From Candidatus Neomarinimicrobiota bacterium (lineage in GTDB: Bacteria > Fidelibacterota > UBA2242 > B5-G15): DNA of 34,954 nucleotides. How positions within the stretch are numbered: the first letter of the stretch is position 1; every line of letters starts with the position of its first letter. The notes beneath the pieces are model-generated. The model worked only from the letters and a program-made list of their open reading frames with translations. It made no database searches and was not told the origin of the DNA. Where the stretch lies: the NCBI GenBank assembly GCA_017656425.1, contig JACDNV010000021.1, positions 1 through 34,954 on the forward strand, written 5' to 3'. The position numbers were made by a program, and so were the translations under genes. Shown here piece by piece: positions 13,269 through 32,306 of the stretch.

Positions 13269-14471
13269 ATGGCAAAATCAATTCAAGAGATCAACGAAAA
13301 AATTAAGAAAAGGAAAGCTGTCGTAGTAACAGCTGAAGAAATGATTGAGATTGTGAGGGAAAAAGGTGAATCACAGGCAGCAAAAGAAGTAGATGTAGTT
13401 ACTACGGGAACCTTCGGACCCATGTGCTCCTCCGGGGCTTACATAAATATTGGACATTCCAAACCAAAAATAAAAATTGGAGGTGGAAAAGTATACCTAA
13501 ACAGTGTAGAAACATATCCGGGATTCGCAGCTGTAGATATCTACATAGGTGCTACAGCTCTTCCGCCTGATGATCCAAGAAATAAAATATATCCTGGAGA
13601 ATTCAGATACGGAGGAGGACACGTTATTGAGGATTTTGTCTCCGGAAAGGATATCGTATTAACAGCTAACGCATATGGTACTGATTGCTATCCACGCAAA
13701 GAATTAAAAACTTACATCAACATCAAAGATGTAAACGAAGCAGTACTATTTAATCCCAGAAATGCCTACCAGAATTACAATGTAGCTGTGAACTTAAGCG
13801 ATAAAATAATATATACCTACATGGGCACATTAAAACCAAGACTTGGCAATGCAAACTACTGCAGTGCTGGTCAACTCTCACCACTTTTAAAAGACCCCCA
13901 TTATAAAACAATTGGCATTGGGACAAGAATATTCCTTGGAGGTGGTGTAGGTTACGTTGCCTGGTGGGGTACACAGCATAATCCTGGTGTAAAAAGAGCA
14001 GTTAACGGTACACCTTTATCACCAGCTGGCACCCTTGCCGTCATCGGTGATCTTAAACAAATGAGCTCTAACTGGTTAAAAGGAACAAGCATGCTCGGTT
14101 ATGGAGTTACGCTAACTGTAGGTATTGGCATCCCGATACCAGTCTTAAATGAGGAGATTGCATACTACACTGCTATAAAAGATGAGGATATATACACTCA
14201 GATCGTAGATTATAGCAAAGCATATCCCGAAGGCATCCCTGAAATAATTGGCTCAGTAAACTACGCTCAGTTGCGAAGTGGAAAAATAAAAATAGACGGA
14301 AAAGAAGTTCCAACAGGCGCTTTGTCAAGTTATGCAAAGGCAAGGGAAATAGCAACAATTCTAAAAGATTGGATTCAATCAGGGAAATTCCTTTTAACGG
14401 AATATGTTGAAAAATTGCCATCGTCAGATTCAGAATACAAATTTAAACCACTGAACCTTAGAGAAATATAG
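13269..14471 (+). CDS. DUF39 (COG1900) homocysteine biosynthesis protein
   Basis: A 400-residue member of the DUF39 family. In methanogens and sulfur-metabolising bacteria this family, with a NIL-ferredoxin partner, is implicated in making homocysteine from aspartate semialdehyde and sulfide without O-acyl homoserine. Seen: the N-terminal INEKIKKRKAVVVTAEEM, the family-typical TTGTFGPMCSSGAYINIGH with Cys53, NAYGTDCYPRKE with Cys140, NANYCSAGQLSP with Cys198, and a C-terminal YAKAREIATILKDWI. These cysteines could carry persulfide. It has no CBS or ferredoxin extension. A strong AAGGAGGAGGAG ribosome site precedes the ATG. The NIL-ferredoxin gene is 10 bp downstream, exactly the expected partner. 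Confidence 0.9.
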   Translation: MAKSIQEINEKIKKRKAVVVTAEEMIEIVREKGESQAAKEVDVVTTGTFGPMCSSGAYINIGHSKPKIKIGGGKVYLNSVETYPGFAAVDIYIGATALPPDDPRNKIYPGEFRYGGGHVIEDFVSGKDIVLTANAYGTDCYPRKELKTYINIKDVNEAVLFNPRNAYQNYNVAVNLSDKIIYTYMGTLKPRLGNANYCSAGQLSPLLKDPHYKTIGIGTRIFLGGGVGYVAWWGTQHNPGVKRAVNGTPLSPAGTLAVIGDLKQMSSNWLKGTSMLGYGVTLTVGIGIPIPVLNEEIAYYTAIKDEDIYTQIVDYSKAYPEGIPEIIGSVNYAQLRSGKIKIDGKEVPTGALSSYAKAREIATILKDWIQSGKFLLTEYVEKLPSSDSEYKFKPLNLREI

Positions 14472-14481
14472 GGAGGTAAAA

Positions 14482-14895
14482 ATGGCAACAAGAAAAATTG
14501 TACTTCATTTTCCACCTTCCATTGTGAACAAACCATTAATATATAAATTGACCAAAGAATATGATATTGAATTCAATATTCTCAAAGCTTCAATATCGCC
14601 GGAAGAGGAAGGTCTATTGGTTCTGGAATTAAATGGAGAAACAACTAAACTGAACAACGCTATTAAATTTTTAGAAAAGGAAAATATAAAAATACAGTCC
14701 CTTGATCAGGATATAATTCATAATCTTGAAAAATGTACTCACTGTGGATTATGCGTTCCCATTTGTCCAACCTTCGCATTTGAGAAAAACCCTGTCACCC
14801 ACGAGATAAACTTCATAAAAGAGAAATGTATAGCATGTGAATTTTGTGTAAAAGTTTGTCCTTATGATGCATTAACTGTAAATTTCGCAGTATGA
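14482..14895 (+). CDS. NIL-domain 2x[4Fe-4S] ferredoxin, partner of DUF39
   Basis: The 137-residue protein joins an N-terminal NIL domain (residues about 3-75), a ligand or partner module also found on methionine ABC ATPases, to a bacterial ferredoxin domain. The ferredoxin ligands are Cys85/88/91/95 and Cys116/119/122/126 ([12 protein letters not shown] and [12 protein letters not shown]). It probably gives electrons to the preceding DUF39 enzyme in homocysteine formation, as reported for the methanogen pair. GGGAGGT precedes the ATG. The stop overlaps the cysE start by 4 nt. Confidence 0.92.
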
Positions 14896-25492: not shown

Positions 25493-28450
25493 ATGAATTT
25501 GAAAAAAGGGAAATTAGAAGCGTTTTTGTTAATTCTGACAATATCATTTGTAATTATCTATTTTGGTTGTGCTCCAAAAATACCAAGTAAATCGGACCTT
25601 CCAAAATGGACAGTGGGAGTTGAATTACCTCTTTTTAATGAAGTGATAACTGCGGATTCGTTATTTAATGACTCACTAATAGTTAAAGTACCACTTGATG
25701 ATAAGGGAAATTATCTAATTGCATTCAAAGACACTATTGATATTGATTCTTCGCAAGTCGGGAATCAGCTGGAAATTAATGACATTCATCACGAGTATTC
25801 TCAATCTGTAGAGGAAGTCTCTACAGATTCTTCCACAAGCAGAATCGTATCAAAATTTGAAGACACAGGTATAAATCCAGTAACATCGGCGGACTCGACA
25901 GAAATAGGAGAAATAACACTTGATGATGTAGCACCTGACTCCACAGCCCCATTTACATTCAGGGAAGTTATGCCTGATGATATTGTCTCAGAACTAGAAA
26001 ATTTAATCAAAGATGGAGGTGGCTCAACGACGGTAGATAGTATCAAAAGTGCAGATTTAAAGCCTCAATATAAAACCTTTACCTTTGATAATTTTAAGTC
26101 AGCAAATTTTATTTCTGGTAATTTAAAAATTGAAATTGTAAATAAAATGATCGTAACCCTCGGAAGTCCTATAAATGTCTCGATAGAAAAAGTAGAAGGT
26201 GAAGATACTGTAATTATAGAAAATGTCCAATGGGACGAGGAAATAGACCCTGGTAACTCATCATCGCAGGTAATCGACTTATCAGGTAAAACCCTACCGG
26301 GTAATATACTTGTAAAAGTATCAGGTCACTCTGCAGGAACGAAAAATCAATCAATTGATATATCAGAAGACGATCTTGACTCAAGATTCTATGTTGTTAT
26401 ATCTGCAGAGAACCTTGTGGTTTCTAGCGCTGAAGCAAAAGTGCCAGAACAAATTGTAGAAGATAACGGGAATATTCTAATAGATGATCCTGATAATAAA
26501 GTACAATCAGCAAAAGTTTACAAAGGAAAATTTAAGATAACAGTATTGAACGATCTATCTCTCGAGGCTAATATAGAAGTACGTGTACCTTCCATACGAA
26601 CACCTAATGGTGAGGGATGGTCATTTGTTGTAAATGCGACTGGTAAAAATACTACCCAAGAGGTTTATCCTATTGACAATTACGAAATTGTTATAAATGA
26701 TATAAACAACCAACAGTTAGAGTACGAATATACCGTTAGAACAGTTGACACCGGGGAAGAATTCTGTACAGTAAATATGCATGATAAAGTAAAAGTCAAC
26801 TTTGATATCTATGGAAGCAATGAAGGTGAAGATATTTCCTTTTCAGAATTCACGGGAATTACGAAAGCACAGGAAATAAGCGATGAAGGTAAAGTTGATG
26901 TTTCAAGTAGTGAAGCAGAAATTGTAAAGGCGACTGTCAAAAGTGGATCTATTGTTTTACGAATTGACAATGGAATAAACCTTGATAACAATAACCAACC
27001 ACACCTTGTGATCAATATACCCCAAATATACGAATCTGAAGGATCAGACCAGTCTTTGACTAGAGAATTTGACATTTCGTCAGGAAAGGAGAAATATGTA
27101 ATAAACCTTTCAGGAAAAGAAATAAGAATGCAAAGGGATAAACAGTTTATAACTTATACCACTAATATAACTACCCAAAGCAATGTAATATCTTCATATA
27201 ATCTTATTGATTCAATAATAACCGATATCATCGTGCCCGAATTGACTTTTCAAAAAGTAACCGGATATTTTAATAAAGAACCAATAGAAGACTCTGATAA
27301 TATAATTCTTGAAGAAGAAACAAAGGTAGATAAGGCATTGATTAAAAGCGGAACACTTCGCTTAAATGTAAAAAACAATATGGGTGTAATTGCCAATGTT
27401 AACTTTTTAATAAATGAAATAGTTAAAGATGGCAGAGAATTTAATATTAACTTTGATCTTCCTGCAAGCCCTGATCCCCTTGTTCTCGAGTATCCTTTAA
27501 ATGGGTATATCATCGATATGGATATGGATAACCAGGTAATCACCTATAACTCTTCCGTAACCTTACCAAGTACAGAACTTATGACACTGGAATTCGGAGA
27601 GGATATCGATATCGATGTAGATTTGGGGGATATAAAATTTGAAAGAGTAACAGGCTATCTTGATACTGTAAGAGTAGAGATTGACACAATTGCTCAGGAA
27701 ATAGGAGCACTGCCAGAGGGGCTGGATGGACTGGAATTTGAAGAAGCGACACTTAAGCTGGTCTTCAATACAAATATCGGTGTCCCTGTAATTCTGGACC
27801 TCACTATCGTAGCAGAAAATGATAATGGCGAGAAAGTCACAAAACATGTAAGGCAAGATATAACCGAAAATAATGTCGTAAATATCCCACAAGCTGAGGA
27901 TTTGTTCAATATCTTCCCGACCAAAATAATAGCTTTCGGTAAATCAGAAGTCGGCGGAAATGGCTCAGTATCTGAAGATCAATACATAGTAGGAAAGCTT
28001 GTAATAGAATTGCCATTCTCATTAATAATAAAGGACGGTTCTGTATACGAAGGGGTAGAACCAAGCAGAATAGAAGATGAAATACCAGATGAGATACAGG
28101 CTGTAAAATTATTCTATGAATATGAAAATCAGATGTCACTTGGGGCAATTGTTGATGTCTTAGTAGCTGAAGATACATCATATTTTAATAGTGATATTAT
28201 GAAACCAGAAACTTTAGCTTCAATTTATCTATTCCCTGATACAACATATTTTGATTCCACATTTGTTGATGAAGAAAAGATGGAATCTTTAAGAGATTCT
28301 TCTTATATAAAACCCATATTCAGATTCCAGGGAATAAAAGATAAAGATGGAAATCCACTGCCTTCCAGACTAATTGCAACGGACAGCCTTGTGTTGACAA
28401 TATATAGCAGAATATATGGTGAAATTAACCCGGAAGAGTTAATCAAATAA
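25493..28450 (+). CDS. Large repeat lipoprotein with six diverged ~137-residue beta-rich units
   Basis: I do not recognise the 985-residue product. It has a lipoprotein signal (LLILTISFVIIYFGC; lipidated Cys26), so it should sit on an envelope membrane. After a Ser/Asp-rich stretch come six diverged units whose core (x-A-x-V/L-K-x-G-x-L-x-I-x-V-x-N, then alternating hydrophobics) starts near residues 202, 338, 477, 614, 750 and 869. The intervals are 136, 139, 137, 136 and 119. Units 4 and 5 are preceded by a matching IxFxxVTGY segment at about 585-592 and 715-722. The protein is acidic, with alternating strand-like residues and few cysteines, which suggests tandem Ig-like sandwiches. AAGGAAG precedes the ATG. 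An outer-membrane protein gene follows 18 bp later, implying a surface pair. Confidence 0.85.
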   Translation: MNLKKGKLEAFLLILTISFVIIYFGCAPKIPSKSDLPKWTVGVELPLFNEVITADSLFNDSLIVKVPLDDKGNYLIAFKDTIDIDSSQVGNQLEINDIHHEYSQSVEEVSTDSSTSRIVSKFEDTGINPVTSADSTEIGEITLDDVAPDSTAPFTFREVMPDDIVSELENLIKDGGGSTTVDSIKSADLKPQYKTFTFDNFKSANFISGNLKIEIVNKMIVTLGSPINVSIEKVEGEDTVIIENVQWDEEIDPGNSSSQVIDLSGKTLPGNILVKVSGHSAGTKNQSIDISEDDLDSRFYVVISAENLVVSSAEAKVPEQIVEDNGNILIDDPDNKVQSAKVYKGKFKITVLNDLSLEANIEVRVPSIRTPNGEGWSFVVNATGKNTTQEVYPIDNYEIVINDINNQQLEYEYTVRTVDTGEEFCTVNMHDKVKVNFDIYGSNEGEDISFSEFTGITKAQEISDEGKVDVSSSEAEIVKATVKSGSIVLRIDNGINLDNNNQPHLVINIPQIYESEGSDQSLTREFDISSGKEKYVINLSGKEIRMQRDKQFITYTTNITTQSNVISSYNLIDSIITDIIVPELTFQKVTGYFNKEPIEDSDNIILEEETKVDKALIKSGTLRLNVKNNMGVIANVNFLINEIVKDGREFNINFDLPASPDPLVLEYPLNGYIIDMDMDNQVITYNSSVTLPSTELMTLEFGEDIDIDVDLGDIKFERVTGYLDTVRVEIDTIAQEIGALPEGLDGLEFEEATLKLVFNTNIGVPVILDLTIVAENDNGEKVTKHVRQDITENNVVNIPQAEDLFNIFPTKIIAFGKSEVGGNGSVSEDQYIVGKLVIELPFSLIIKDGSVYEGVEPSRIEDEIPDEIQAVKLFYEYENQMSLGAIVDVLVAEDTSYFNSDIMKPETLASIYLFPDTTYFDSTFVDEEKMESLRDSSYIKPIFRFQGIKDKDGNPLPSRLIATDSLVLTIYSRIYGEINPEELIK

Positions 28451-29882: not shown

Positions 29883-30539
29883 ATGAAAAAGGAAATTTAT
29901 CTTAATAACAAAAATATAGAAAAGAAGGCAGAAAAATTTTTATTGTTAAGAAATAAATTCAAAAAAAGAGAAATTGAATTACTTCCTTATAGAACAGGCA
30001 TATTAGTTATCGATATGCAAAAATATTTTACAGACACTTCATCACATGCCTACATTCCAAGTGTACCTCCAGTTATTAGACGAATAAAATCACTTATAAA
30101 TATAGCAGAACAAACAAGCATGAAAATTATTTTTACAAAACATATTGATAAGGATAATTCATCTCCGATGACACGTTGGTGGGAGAAGTCCATAAAACCT
30201 AATAATCAGTACAGTCAATTAACACCTGGATTAGTTGATAGCATCGAAAATTTTGTGTTAATAGAAAAAGACCAATATGACGCCTTTTTCAATACAAACC
30301 TCGAGGATTTACTAAAAAACAACAATATAACTACTGTAATCATAACAGGAGTACTCACTCACCTTTGTTGTGAAACCACTGCAAGGTCAGCTTTTATCAG
30401 AGGATTTAATGTTTTATTCCCTGTAGATTGTACAGCCACCTATAATGAACAATTTCATAAAGCCGCACTTTTAAATCTTGCACATGGATTTGCAATATTA
30501 ACGTCAGCAAAAGAAATATATGGAAAACTTTCACATTAG
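29883..30539 (+). CDS. Isochorismatase/nicotinamidase-family cysteine hydrolase
   Basis: The 218-residue protein has the alpha/beta fold of isochorismatase-like amidohydrolases. Its triad is Asp44 (ILVIDMQKYF), Lys129 (LIEKDQYDAFF) and Cys162 (VLTHLCCETTARSAF). The cis-peptide segment GVLTH precedes the nucleophile. Family members hydrolyse amides such as nicotinamide, N-carbamoyl compounds or ureides; the substrate is unknown. A basic N-terminal extension (residues 1-35) precedes the fold. No SD is seen. The flavoprotein gene begins 20 nt before its stop, so it is the first gene of a tightly overlapping trio. Confidence 0.9.
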   Translation: MKKEIYLNNKNIEKKAEKFLLLRNKFKKREIELLPYRTGILVIDMQKYFTDTSSHAYIPSVPPVIRRIKSLINIAEQTSMKIIFTKHIDKDNSSPMTRWWEKSIKPNNQYSQLTPGLVDSIENFVLIEKDQYDAFFNTNLEDLLKNNNITTVIITGVLTHLCCETTARSAFIRGFNVLFPVDCTATYNEQFHKAALLNLAHGFAILTSAKEIYGKLSH

Positions 30540-31389
30540 TATAATTGGAGCCGGTCCAGCCGGTATGTTTTGCGCAATTCAGTTAAAAAAATATGGATAC
30601 GATCCAGTTATATTTGAAAAAGATAAAATTGGGGGGCTGTCGAGAGAAGCCTACTTTATTAATAATATACCAGGATTCCCGAATGGTATTAATGGGATAC
30701 ATTTTGCAAATCTATTACAAAAGCATCTCGAAAAATTTAATATTAAATTTATTAATTCGAAGATTGAGAAAGTGATATACGAAAACAATCAATTTATCCT
30801 AACAACCCTATTTGGTAACTATTCGTGTAATATACTTATTGTCGCATCAGGTACAAAACCAAAACCTTCAAATACAAAAATTAGTGAAAAACTAAAATCA
30901 AAAGTTTTTTATAGCCTGGATAACCTTAGAGACTATAAGGCTAAATGCATAGCAATAATTGGTTCAGGTGATATAGCCTTTGATTATGCACTCAGCTTAT
31001 CCAACAAAAATAAAGTAATAATCTTAAATCGATCAAGCAAACCAAAAGCGATACCAGCCCTCATTGAGGAAGCAGAGAAAAAACATAATATAAAATTACT
31101 AAATGAGACTGAGCTAGTAAAGGTAGAAGAATATAGAGACAGATTGTTACTAACCTTAAATAATCTAAAAGAAATAGTAGTTGATCACATTCTTTTTGCA
31201 ATTGGAAGAGAGCCCGAGCTTGATTTTATTGATAAAAAAATCATTAAGAAGCACAATGTTTTAAATATGAGCGGGAAATTATATATCATAGGGGACGCAA
31301 AAAACGGAATTTATAGACAAATAACGATAGCAGCAGGAGGGGGAATAAGATGTGCAATGGAAATCCACAATCGGTTAAAACAAACATAA
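30520..31389 (+). CDS. Thioredoxin-reductase-like FAD/NAD(P)H oxidoreductase lacking the CxxC
   Basis: The 289-residue flavoprotein has the FAD Rossmann motif GAGPAG (10-15), the NAD(P)H motif IGSGDIAFDYA (147-157), the GDA of the second FAD site (258-260) and YRQITIAAGGG (265-275) of thioredoxin reductases. The redox CxxC that normally lies just before the NAD(P)H motif is absent; only Cys143 is near. TrxR-like proteins without CxxC include ferredoxin-NADP reductases of the YumC type, so an electron-donating role to a partner is plausible. It overlaps the hydrolase gene by 20 nt and the radical SAM gene by 40 nt. It is shorter than YumC-type reductases (about 330-350). Confidence 0.85.
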   Translation: MENFHISIIGAGPAGMFCAIQLKKYGYDPVIFEKDKIGGLSREAYFINNIPGFPNGINGIHFANLLQKHLEKFNIKFINSKIEKVIYENNQFILTTLFGNYSCNILIVASGTKPKPSNTKISEKLKSKVFYSLDNLRDYKAKCIAIIGSGDIAFDYALSLSNKNKVIILNRSSKPKAIPALIEEAEKKHNIKLLNETELVKVEEYRDRLLLTLNNLKEIVVDHILFAIGREPELDFIDKKIIKKHNVLNMSGKLYIIGDAKNGIYRQITIAAGGGIRCAMEIHNRLKQT

Positions 31390-32306
31390 ATATGAGAATA
31401 ATTTCAACAACAGGTAGAGAAGATCTTGCTACTGTTTATACCGCTACAATTAATGGAAAATACGTGGAATTCGTTGAATCTTTACAGCCACCCTTAGACA
31501 TTTCACAGAAATGGGTACTCATTGTTTCAACTTTGAGTGGTTGCCCTATAAAATGTAAAATATGTGATGCAGGTGATTATTATAAAGGGAAATTAACTAT
31601 TGATGAAATACTATCTCAAATAGACTATATGGTTCTTAAAAAATTTCCTGACAGAAAAATAAAAACAAAAAAGTTTAAGATTCAATTTGCGCGAGTTGGA
31701 GAACCAGCTTTCAATCCTGCTGTTTTAGAAGTAATCGACAAATTAAAAACTTATTATTTAGCTGATGGAATAATGCCGTGCATTTCTACAATAGCTCCAG
31801 AGGGTTATGATTACTTTTTTGAAAAACTACTTAAAGTAAAAAAAGAAAAATACCCACATAATTTCCAATTACAATTTTCTATACATACAACAGATCCTGA
31901 TTTGAGAGAATGGCTAATACCTGCAAAAAAATGGAACCTGGATAAAATCGCAATGTATGGTGAAAGATTTTATGATCCCGGTGGAAGAAAAATCACCTTA
32001 AATTTTGCTATAAATGAAAATTCCCCGGTCGATTCGGATATCTTACTGAAACACTACAACCCCGATATCTTTCTTATTAAACTCACACCGATAAATCCTA
32101 CCTATAATGCTCTTCATTATAATCTGGCACACCTTGACTTTGAAAATTATTTAAAAAATATGCAAAACAAATTAACTGATGCAGGTTATGAGGTTATAAT
32201 AAGTATAGGAGAATTGGAAGAAAACAAAATAGGTAGTAACTGTGGTCAGTTCATAAAAAAGCACAGATATACCTCACAAGTTAATAGGTTTGCATATAAG
32301 TATTAA
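31350..32306 (+). CDS. Short RlmN/Cfr-like radical SAM protein lacking the resolving cysteine
   Basis: The 318-residue protein has the radical SAM cluster C65-PIK-C69-KI-C72, RVGEP (115-119), a SIHTTDPDLREWLIPAKKWN segment as in RlmN, and IGSNCGQF with Cys298 at the position of RlmN Cys355, the methyl carrier. RlmN and Cfr carry a second cysteine seven residues before the cluster (Cys118 and Cys105); here that position is Ile58. The N-terminal accessory domain of RlmN is also missing. It is therefore a divergent homologue with unknown substrate. The start at 31350 follows GGAGGGGG at about 9 nt, though that sequence also encodes a conserved Gly run of the upstream protein. ATG 31392, 2 nt past the flavoprotein stop, is the alternative. 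It is the last gene of the trio. Confidence 0.88.
   Translation: MCNGNPQSVKTNINMRIISTTGREDLATVYTATINGKYVEFVESLQPPLDISQKWVLIVSTLSGCPIKCKICDAGDYYKGKLTIDEILSQIDYMVLKKFPDRKIKTKKFKIQFARVGEPAFNPAVLEVIDKLKTYYLADGIMPCISTIAPEGYDYFFEKLLKVKKEKYPHNFQLQFSIHTTDPDLREWLIPAKKWNLDKIAMYGERFYDPGGRKITLNFAINENSPVDSDILLKHYNPDIFLIKLTPINPTYNALHYNLAHLDFENYLKNMQNKLTDAGYEVIISIGELEENKIGSNCGQFIKKHRYTSQVNRFAYKY

Follow-up and report, generated by a model that had tools for sequence, protein, structure and literature searches.

A three-gene cassette on the plus strand of contig JACDNV010000021.1 from a Candidatus Neomarinimicrobiota bacterium (positions 29883-32306) is a conserved and co-inherited operon, the members of which form distinct orthologous groups. 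The window analyzed here is that entire contig (34,954 bases), and the genome it comes from is 2.8 Mb in size and 99.7% complete. The first gene encodes an isochorismatase-like cysteine hydrolase of 218 amino acids (29883-30539; open reading frame (ORF) list and PF00857), and the second a flavin adenine dinucleotide (FAD)/NAD(P)H flavoprotein of 289 amino acids with a thioredoxin reductase (TrxR) fold but without the redox CxxC (30520-31389; AlphaFold2 model and alignment). The third encodes a radical S-adenosylmethionine (SAM) protein of the RlmN/Cfr fold, 318 amino acids long if the full ORF is considered (31350-32306; ORF list) and 304 amino acids long from its conserved start (31392-32306; ortholog starts and AlphaFold2 model). 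An earlier reading of the DNA letters alone, referred to below as the sequence-only reading, had placed three ORFs of these families at this site, in agreement with the coordinates and profile matches obtained here, and had proposed that they make up an undescribed system; this proposal is borne out by the recurrence of the trio, in the same order, in distant phyla of both Bacteria and Archaea. No description of the cassette was found in the open-access literature (one open-access library searched). That the three genes serve a shared pathway is well supported.

Relatives of the radical-SAM gene were sought with two short peptide patterns in 84,980 species, each represented by one genome. The scan returned 113 relatives, probably fewer than truly exist since exact pattern matches were required, and the best 80 of the 113 were fetched together with their surroundings. 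The radical-SAM gene scored above 340 bits in all 80 fetched loci. With a threshold of 120 bits for each partner, the flavoprotein gene was found within the locus in 73/80 cases, making these two genes the tightest pair, and all three genes were found in 60/80. The order hydrolase-flavoprotein-radical-SAM accounted for 55 of the 80 loci, radical-SAM-hydrolase-flavoprotein for four and another order for one. The incomplete loci, some of which were truncated by contig ends, harbored the radical-SAM and flavoprotein genes (13), the radical-SAM and hydrolase genes (one) or the radical-SAM gene alone (six). Tight gene coupling is typical of the relatives, as the median spacing was -11 nucleotides (nt) from hydrolase to flavoprotein and -4 nt from flavoprotein to radical-SAM gene. 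The sequence-only reading had proposed a neighbourhood search of this kind as a check, with a lack of conservation outside close relatives counting against a system; the trio proved to be conserved well beyond close relatives. Going by record labels, and among loci that are partly non-independent (e.g. L029/L030, L065/L068, L054/L060 and many of the Heimdallarchaeota), complete trios are spread over some 18 named bacterial and archaeal phyla: Heimdallarchaeota, Thermoplasmatota, Methanobacteriota, Chloroflexota, Aminicenantes, Ignavibacteriota, Thermotogota, Zixibacteria, Stahlbacteria, Cloacimonadota, Bacteroidota, Acidobacteriota, Caldifarciminota, Krumholzibacteriota, Spirochaetota, Elusimicrobiota, Calditrichota and Fidelibacterota. 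To judge from these groups, the organisms bearing the trio would mostly be anaerobes. The flanking genes of L054 (Aminicenantes) and L060 (Chrysiogenales) are nearly identical, and one of these two metagenome-assembled genomes (MAGs) is probably mislabeled.

Protein distance matrices of the three families, computed over the 60 complete loci, were correlated with r values of 0.79-0.84, the largest value after shuffling being 0.14. Within the Marinimicrobiota the cassette is rare, the radical-SAM profile matching at an E-value of 1e-30 in 10/245 genomes; it is present in two relatives from the same order as the window's organism (G022 and G008). A flavoprotein of the trio type (338-370 bits) was found in 8/9 radical-SAM-positive Marinimicrobiota, the ninth (G190) showing a flavoprotein fragment at a contig end, and in 0/38 radical-SAM-negative ones, where the best score was 210 bits. 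One of the 10 profile matches is a diverged radical-SAM fragment (L004:1-576; G015:C63; 34% identity) that lies at a contig end with no partners in view.

The coupling of the genes in the window is probably less extreme than first described. The 20-nt overlap between the hydrolase and flavoprotein ORFs noted in the sequence-only reading is real. The overlap of up to 40 nt it described, between the flavoprotein and radical-SAM genes, is obtained only if the latter starts at the ATG at 31350, which is preceded by an AGGAGG-like stretch; orthologs begin at the equivalent of M15. With that start, the ATG at 31392, the two genes are 2 nt apart, and the 40-nt overlap probably results from the choice of start codon.

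The radical-SAM protein differs from an ordinary RlmN, in that it uses the RlmN scaffold and yet fails several of the tests that define the family. Profiles for CfrAB (1.4e-11) and RlmN (9.1e-11) both matched far below their cut-offs, the curated scores being 41.3 versus 290 bits for RlmN and 44.3 versus 530 for Cfr. The AlphaFold2 model (predicted local distance difference test (pLDDT) 91.8) found its nearest solved structures in RlmN and an RlmN-like methylase (Z 27.4 for 6fz6 and 27.3 for 5hr6), with a superposition of 281-282 residues at a root-mean-square deviation (rmsd) of 3.2; Cfr followed at Z 20.3, and the next fold came well below at Z 15. Common to RlmN/Cfr and the trio protein are the CX3CX2C motif, a methyl-accepting cysteine in a C-G-Q loop, a GEP motif and a conserved serine. 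Residues were compared in an alignment of 74 family members and 23 canonical RlmN proteins from relatives. The CX3CX2C motif of the [4Fe-4S] cluster (C65/C69/C72, numbered from 31350; 31542-31565) was invariant in 81/81 radical-SAM rows, and the methyl-accepting cysteine (C298, codon 32241-32243, equivalent to RlmN C355) was present in 74/74 family members and 23/23 RlmN proteins. In contrast, the column of the second cysteine, which profile alignment equates with C118 of E. coli RlmN, was Cys in 23/23 RlmN proteins and in 0/74 family members, where Ile, Met, Val or Thr takes its place (I58 in the window, codon 31521-31523). The N-terminal helical domain is missing as well: RlmN proteins begin 45-93 residues before the median start of the family, and the RlmN model aligns to the radical-SAM protein only from position 70 or 100. 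Where N, G, K, A, N, R, G and A prevail in RlmN, the family has the invariant residues K110, R115, Q173, Q175, K244, G287, E291 and N297. The family is also mostly acidic, with a median isoelectric point (pI) of 5.9 versus 9.1 for RlmN, which together with the missing N-terminal domain would argue against an RNA substrate. Of the RlmN-like methylase named in the sequence-only reading, the fold and the methyl-accepting cysteine thus stand, while the second cysteine and the N-terminal domain do not. A replacement of RlmN by the trio protein was considered and rejected, as the same genome encodes a separate canonical RlmN (C8:42829-43845, 385 bits). In a review on RlmN/Cfr (PMC9692996), the second cysteine is described as indispensable, probably acting as general base, and the cysteinyl radical as being reduced by a currently unidentified source. 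Since that cysteine is absent here, a related but altered chemistry is to be expected.

A radical-SAM relative was also detected in 24 of 50,697 phage records, with 23-34% identity among the 20 matches listed. Three of the six phage relatives examined (L201, L202 and L204) keep both cysteines; those of Moorella phage MTATph1 (L199:5833-6795), Bacteroides phage Versailles (L200:5833-6840) and Pectobacterium phage Wc4 (L203:4821-5696) are without the second, so that its loss is not confined to the cassette. In the Moorella phage, an in-frame stop (L199:6655-6657) splits the radical-SAM body from the segment bearing the conserved CGQ cysteine, and the two parts are annotated as two genes. In Vibrio phage 166E36-1 (L202:3125-5822), a nicotinamide phosphoribosyltransferase gene is directly followed by the radical-SAM gene, and a ribose-phosphate pyrophosphokinase gene lies nearby.

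The flavoprotein shares the whole fold of low-Mr thioredoxin reductase, TrxB (Z 31-32 over 283-289 residues; with VIA-align, Z 31.8, 283 residues and an rmsd of 2.4 against 5mh4), its AlphaFold2 model having a pLDDT of 96.4. The glycines of the FAD and NAD(P) motifs (G10, G12, G148 and G150) are conserved, as is the terminal GD...RQ. The match to TIGR01292, in contrast, reached 133.5 bits (6.7e-39) versus a cut-off of 343, and the redox cysteines are gone, as the sequence-only reading had pointed out. All 10 canonical TrxR compared, namely a separate TrxR-type protein encoded in the window's genome and nine relatives of that protein, carry CATC where the window's flavoprotein reads YSLD (residues 131-134, 30910-30921), Y131 and D134 replacing the two Cys. 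No Cys figures among the residues listed at these two columns for 64 family rows, and no column of the CxxC region has Cys at 20% among 74 aligned flavoproteins, of which two have any CxxC at all, and elsewhere in the protein. Electrons must therefore leave the FAD by another path, with a ferredoxin, the radical-SAM protein or a substrate as the recipient. Some members of the TrxR fold reduce ferredoxin, and the TrxR-type ferredoxin-NADP reductases and Bdr/YpdA are TrxR-like flavoproteins that do not work through a CxxC. The likeness of the trio flavoprotein to the latter two groups is structural only (Z 25.5 for 8c16_B and 24.8 for 7a7b_A); it is shorter (289 versus 320-340 amino acids) and structurally closer to TrxR.

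The hydrolase matches the Isochorismatase family PF00857 with 146.1 bits (1.5e-42; cut-off 27) and shares with cysteine hydrolases (RutB, biuret hydrolase, CSHase) and isochorismatases (EntB, PhzD) both this domain and the Asp-Lys-Cys triad, D44 and K129 being conserved at 100% and C162 in 61/62 rows, with an X in the remaining one. Its closest profiles are those of EntB 2fq1 (1e-40), which differs in having Gly at the catalytic Cys position, and of the uncharacterised cysteine hydrolase 3irv (4.5e-37). The bond cut is predicted to be an amide or carbamoyl bond, and no finer prediction is offered because the protein falls far below every named equivalog cut-off (RutB 59.1/370, biuret hydrolase 58.7/378 and nicotinamidase 23/174 bits).

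Of the three genes, that of the hydrolase is the most loosely associated with the others. Among 62 radical-SAM-positive genomes searched for it (18 + 37 + 7), 58 have a hydrolase scoring at least 190 bits, versus 5/38 radical-SAM-negative Marinimicrobiota. It was absent from beside the flavoprotein/radical-SAM pair in 11 genomes. Two of these encode a trio-type hydrolase elsewhere: in G045 it lies on the same chromosome, with an apparent remnant beside the pair, and in G295 it adjoins the flavoprotein gene on a contig also holding the radical-SAM gene. Seven (G043, G058, G067, G068, G078, G083 and G293) carry a hydrolase of a sister type, and two have none. The distant hydrolases were rejected as plain orthologs, as the tree, in which the bootstrap had not settled, assigns nine of these to a well supported clade of their own; the hydrolases of L187 and L191, outside the tree, resemble this sister clade by eye. 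A second hydrolase above 110 bits was found in 0/37 genomes checked. In our reading, on small numbers and with kinship ignored, one hydrolase has taken the place of another, and the activity would then be required. The sister-type hydrolases include L186:6401-7069 and L190:6350-7030; a gene resembling S-adenosylhomocysteine hydrolase, named by eye, is a neighbor in L186 and lies ~5 kb away in L190.

The account that we favor, to which we give nearly even chances, is that one operon encodes one anaerobic pathway modifying a small metabolite, with the flavoprotein as electron donor, the radical-SAM protein as radical enzyme and the hydrolase as the enzyme cutting an amide. The target would be a small molecule, most likely containing both an amide and an aromatic ring. 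SAM would provide a methyl group that is loaded onto Cys298 and activated there by the deoxyadenosyl radical, and the one-carbon unit would pass to an sp2 carbon as in RlmN, other residues standing in for the second cysteine that is lacking. Electrons from NAD(P)H would reach the radical-SAM protein through the flavoprotein, either for its cluster or for the cysteinyl radical left after turnover, and the hydrolase would cleave an amide or carbamoyl bond, whether in the substrate or in the product. The electron flow, the methylene transfer and the smallness of the substrate are inferred; the division of labor between reductase, radical-SAM protein and hydrolase is compatible with everything found and is the simplest mechanism using all three proteins. 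In its most specific form, which we hold to be plausible at somewhat below even chances, the proposal is that RlmN-type methylcysteine radical chemistry acts on a small metabolite instead of RNA in an undescribed pathway shared by bacteria and archaea, a dedicated NAD(P)H flavoprotein serving as the reductant still missing for the textbook enzyme, new invariant residues replacing the second cysteine and a cysteine hydrolase completing the conversion.

Several observations weigh against this account. RlmN/Cfr-type methylation may not be feasible here, given that the second cysteine is described as indispensable in those enzymes. The window's own radical-SAM protein, with a pI of 8.75, is basic, unlike the family median. 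The phage genes of L199, L200 and L203 have no annotated flavoprotein or hydrolase alongside, and the partners are therefore not required for that variant of the fold. The hydrolase is missing in 4/62 radical-SAM-positive genomes (G042, G294, G113 and G190; the operon sits at a contig end in the last two), and the sister type also occurs in 5/38 radical-SAM-negative Marinimicrobiota, one of which has two hydrolase fragments of a type not placed in the tree. The correlated trees partly reflect shared species history, and the trio genomes are nearly all MAGs, mostly draft, with some doubtful taxon labels.

An alternative that we consider unlikely, and the strongest of those weighed, is that C298 acts as a hydrogen-atom donor or redox residue instead of a methyl carrier, in a lyase, reductase or isomerase reaction. 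Going by the above review, loss of the second cysteine removes a step that RlmN needs to release its methylated product; in addition, the new invariants (K110, R115, Q173, Q175, K244, E291 and N297) replace residues conserved in RlmN; the C-G-Q loop and cluster motif, however, match RlmN closely and favor methyl-transfer chemistry. Less probable still is that the radical-SAM protein is a reduced RlmN-type methylase of tRNA or rRNA, its partners providing only redox support and housekeeping. The RlmN fold (Z 27), the retained methyl-accepting Cys and the tRNA genes near 2/6 of the phage relatives examined are consistent with such a role. The absence of the second cysteine (74/74) and of the N-terminal 45-93 residues, the low median pI of the family (5.9 versus 9.1), the full RlmN already encoded in the genome and the presence of a small-molecule amidase with no evident role on RNA all speak against it.

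Comparably improbable is that the cassette serves one-carbon/corrinoid metabolism, for example in the synthesis, repair or recycling of a cofactor linked to folate or corrinoids. Genes of this kind, their families picked after being seen, flank 12/80 loci (626,537 bases) versus 2/60 background windows from the same genome set (812,963 bases). They comprise MeTr, MTHFR C-terminal, RACo, CooC and DUF3786 genes in Anaerolineales, MeTr, RACo, FPGS and formyltransferase genes in Thermoplasmata-type archaea, and MttB-like, homocysteine methyltransferase and MetH activation domain genes in one Krumholzibacteriota locus, the names of the formyltransferase, Mur-ligase-type FPGS, homocysteine methyltransferase, MetH activation and DUF3786 genes being based on Pfam and the others given by eye. 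The window itself has a formate-tetrahydrofolate ligase gene ~24 kb from the cassette. Yet no constant fourth gene was found among the cassette loci, most of which have unrelated neighbors, and RACo is present in 22/48 of the trio genomes reached through the loci and in 0/3 Marinimicrobiota with the trio (the window's genome included) versus 11/29 without it, so that a strict tie to corrinoid activation is not supported. Cobamide synthesis, such as methylation of an adenine lower ligand, is excluded by the finding of CobS (cobamide assembly) in 3/48 cassette genomes, the search being positive in 10/14 known genomes used as controls. Since most trio genomes lack RACo and nearly all lack CobS, the one-carbon/corrinoid link is a lead, not a finding. 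A Sir2-like gene, identified by eye, was seen in the flanks of 8/80 cassette loci (L033, L034, L088, L089, L094, L098, L103 and L108; five of them Heimdallarchaeota) versus 1/60 background windows. Finally, that the genes are adjacent through shared regional ancestry and belong to separate pathways is very improbable and largely refuted: the hydrolase is separable and a sister type exists without the pair, but overlapping genes keep the same operon order over about 18 phyla, form distinct orthologous groups and have correlated trees.

Elsewhere in the window, a porin-like gene lies 115 nt upstream of the cassette; downstream, a ~650-nt gap separates it from a pectate-lyase-like gene in convergent orientation. 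Neither an Rfam nor a tRNA scan of the window gave any match; predicted promoter sites were fewer than in shuffled sequences and predicted terminators numbered 4 versus a mean of 2.2. The PADLOC defence models had no match to the hydrolase or radical-SAM protein and a single weak one to the flavoprotein, covering its first 34 matched residues only. No match to the cassette was found in a plasmid search, nor any radical-SAM relative in two scans of viral contigs. A 985-amino acid ORF with no Pfam/NCBIfam match (25493-28450) adjoins a PorV/PorQ-like gene, and a homocysteine biosynthesis (HcyBio) gene followed by a NIL-ferredoxin gene (13269-14895) has Rrf2, PALP, NadA and FTHFS genes nearby, a set that looks like anaerobic sulfur and one-carbon metabolism.

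The cassette provides a natural test of how class A radical-SAM chemistry can proceed when the second cysteine required by RlmN and Cfr is absent. Should the flavoprotein be the electron donor, it would also offer a handle on the reductant of the RlmN/Cfr reaction, given as unidentified in the above review. An operon spread over about 18 named phyla and lacking an assigned function suggests a widespread, undescribed step of anaerobic metabolism.

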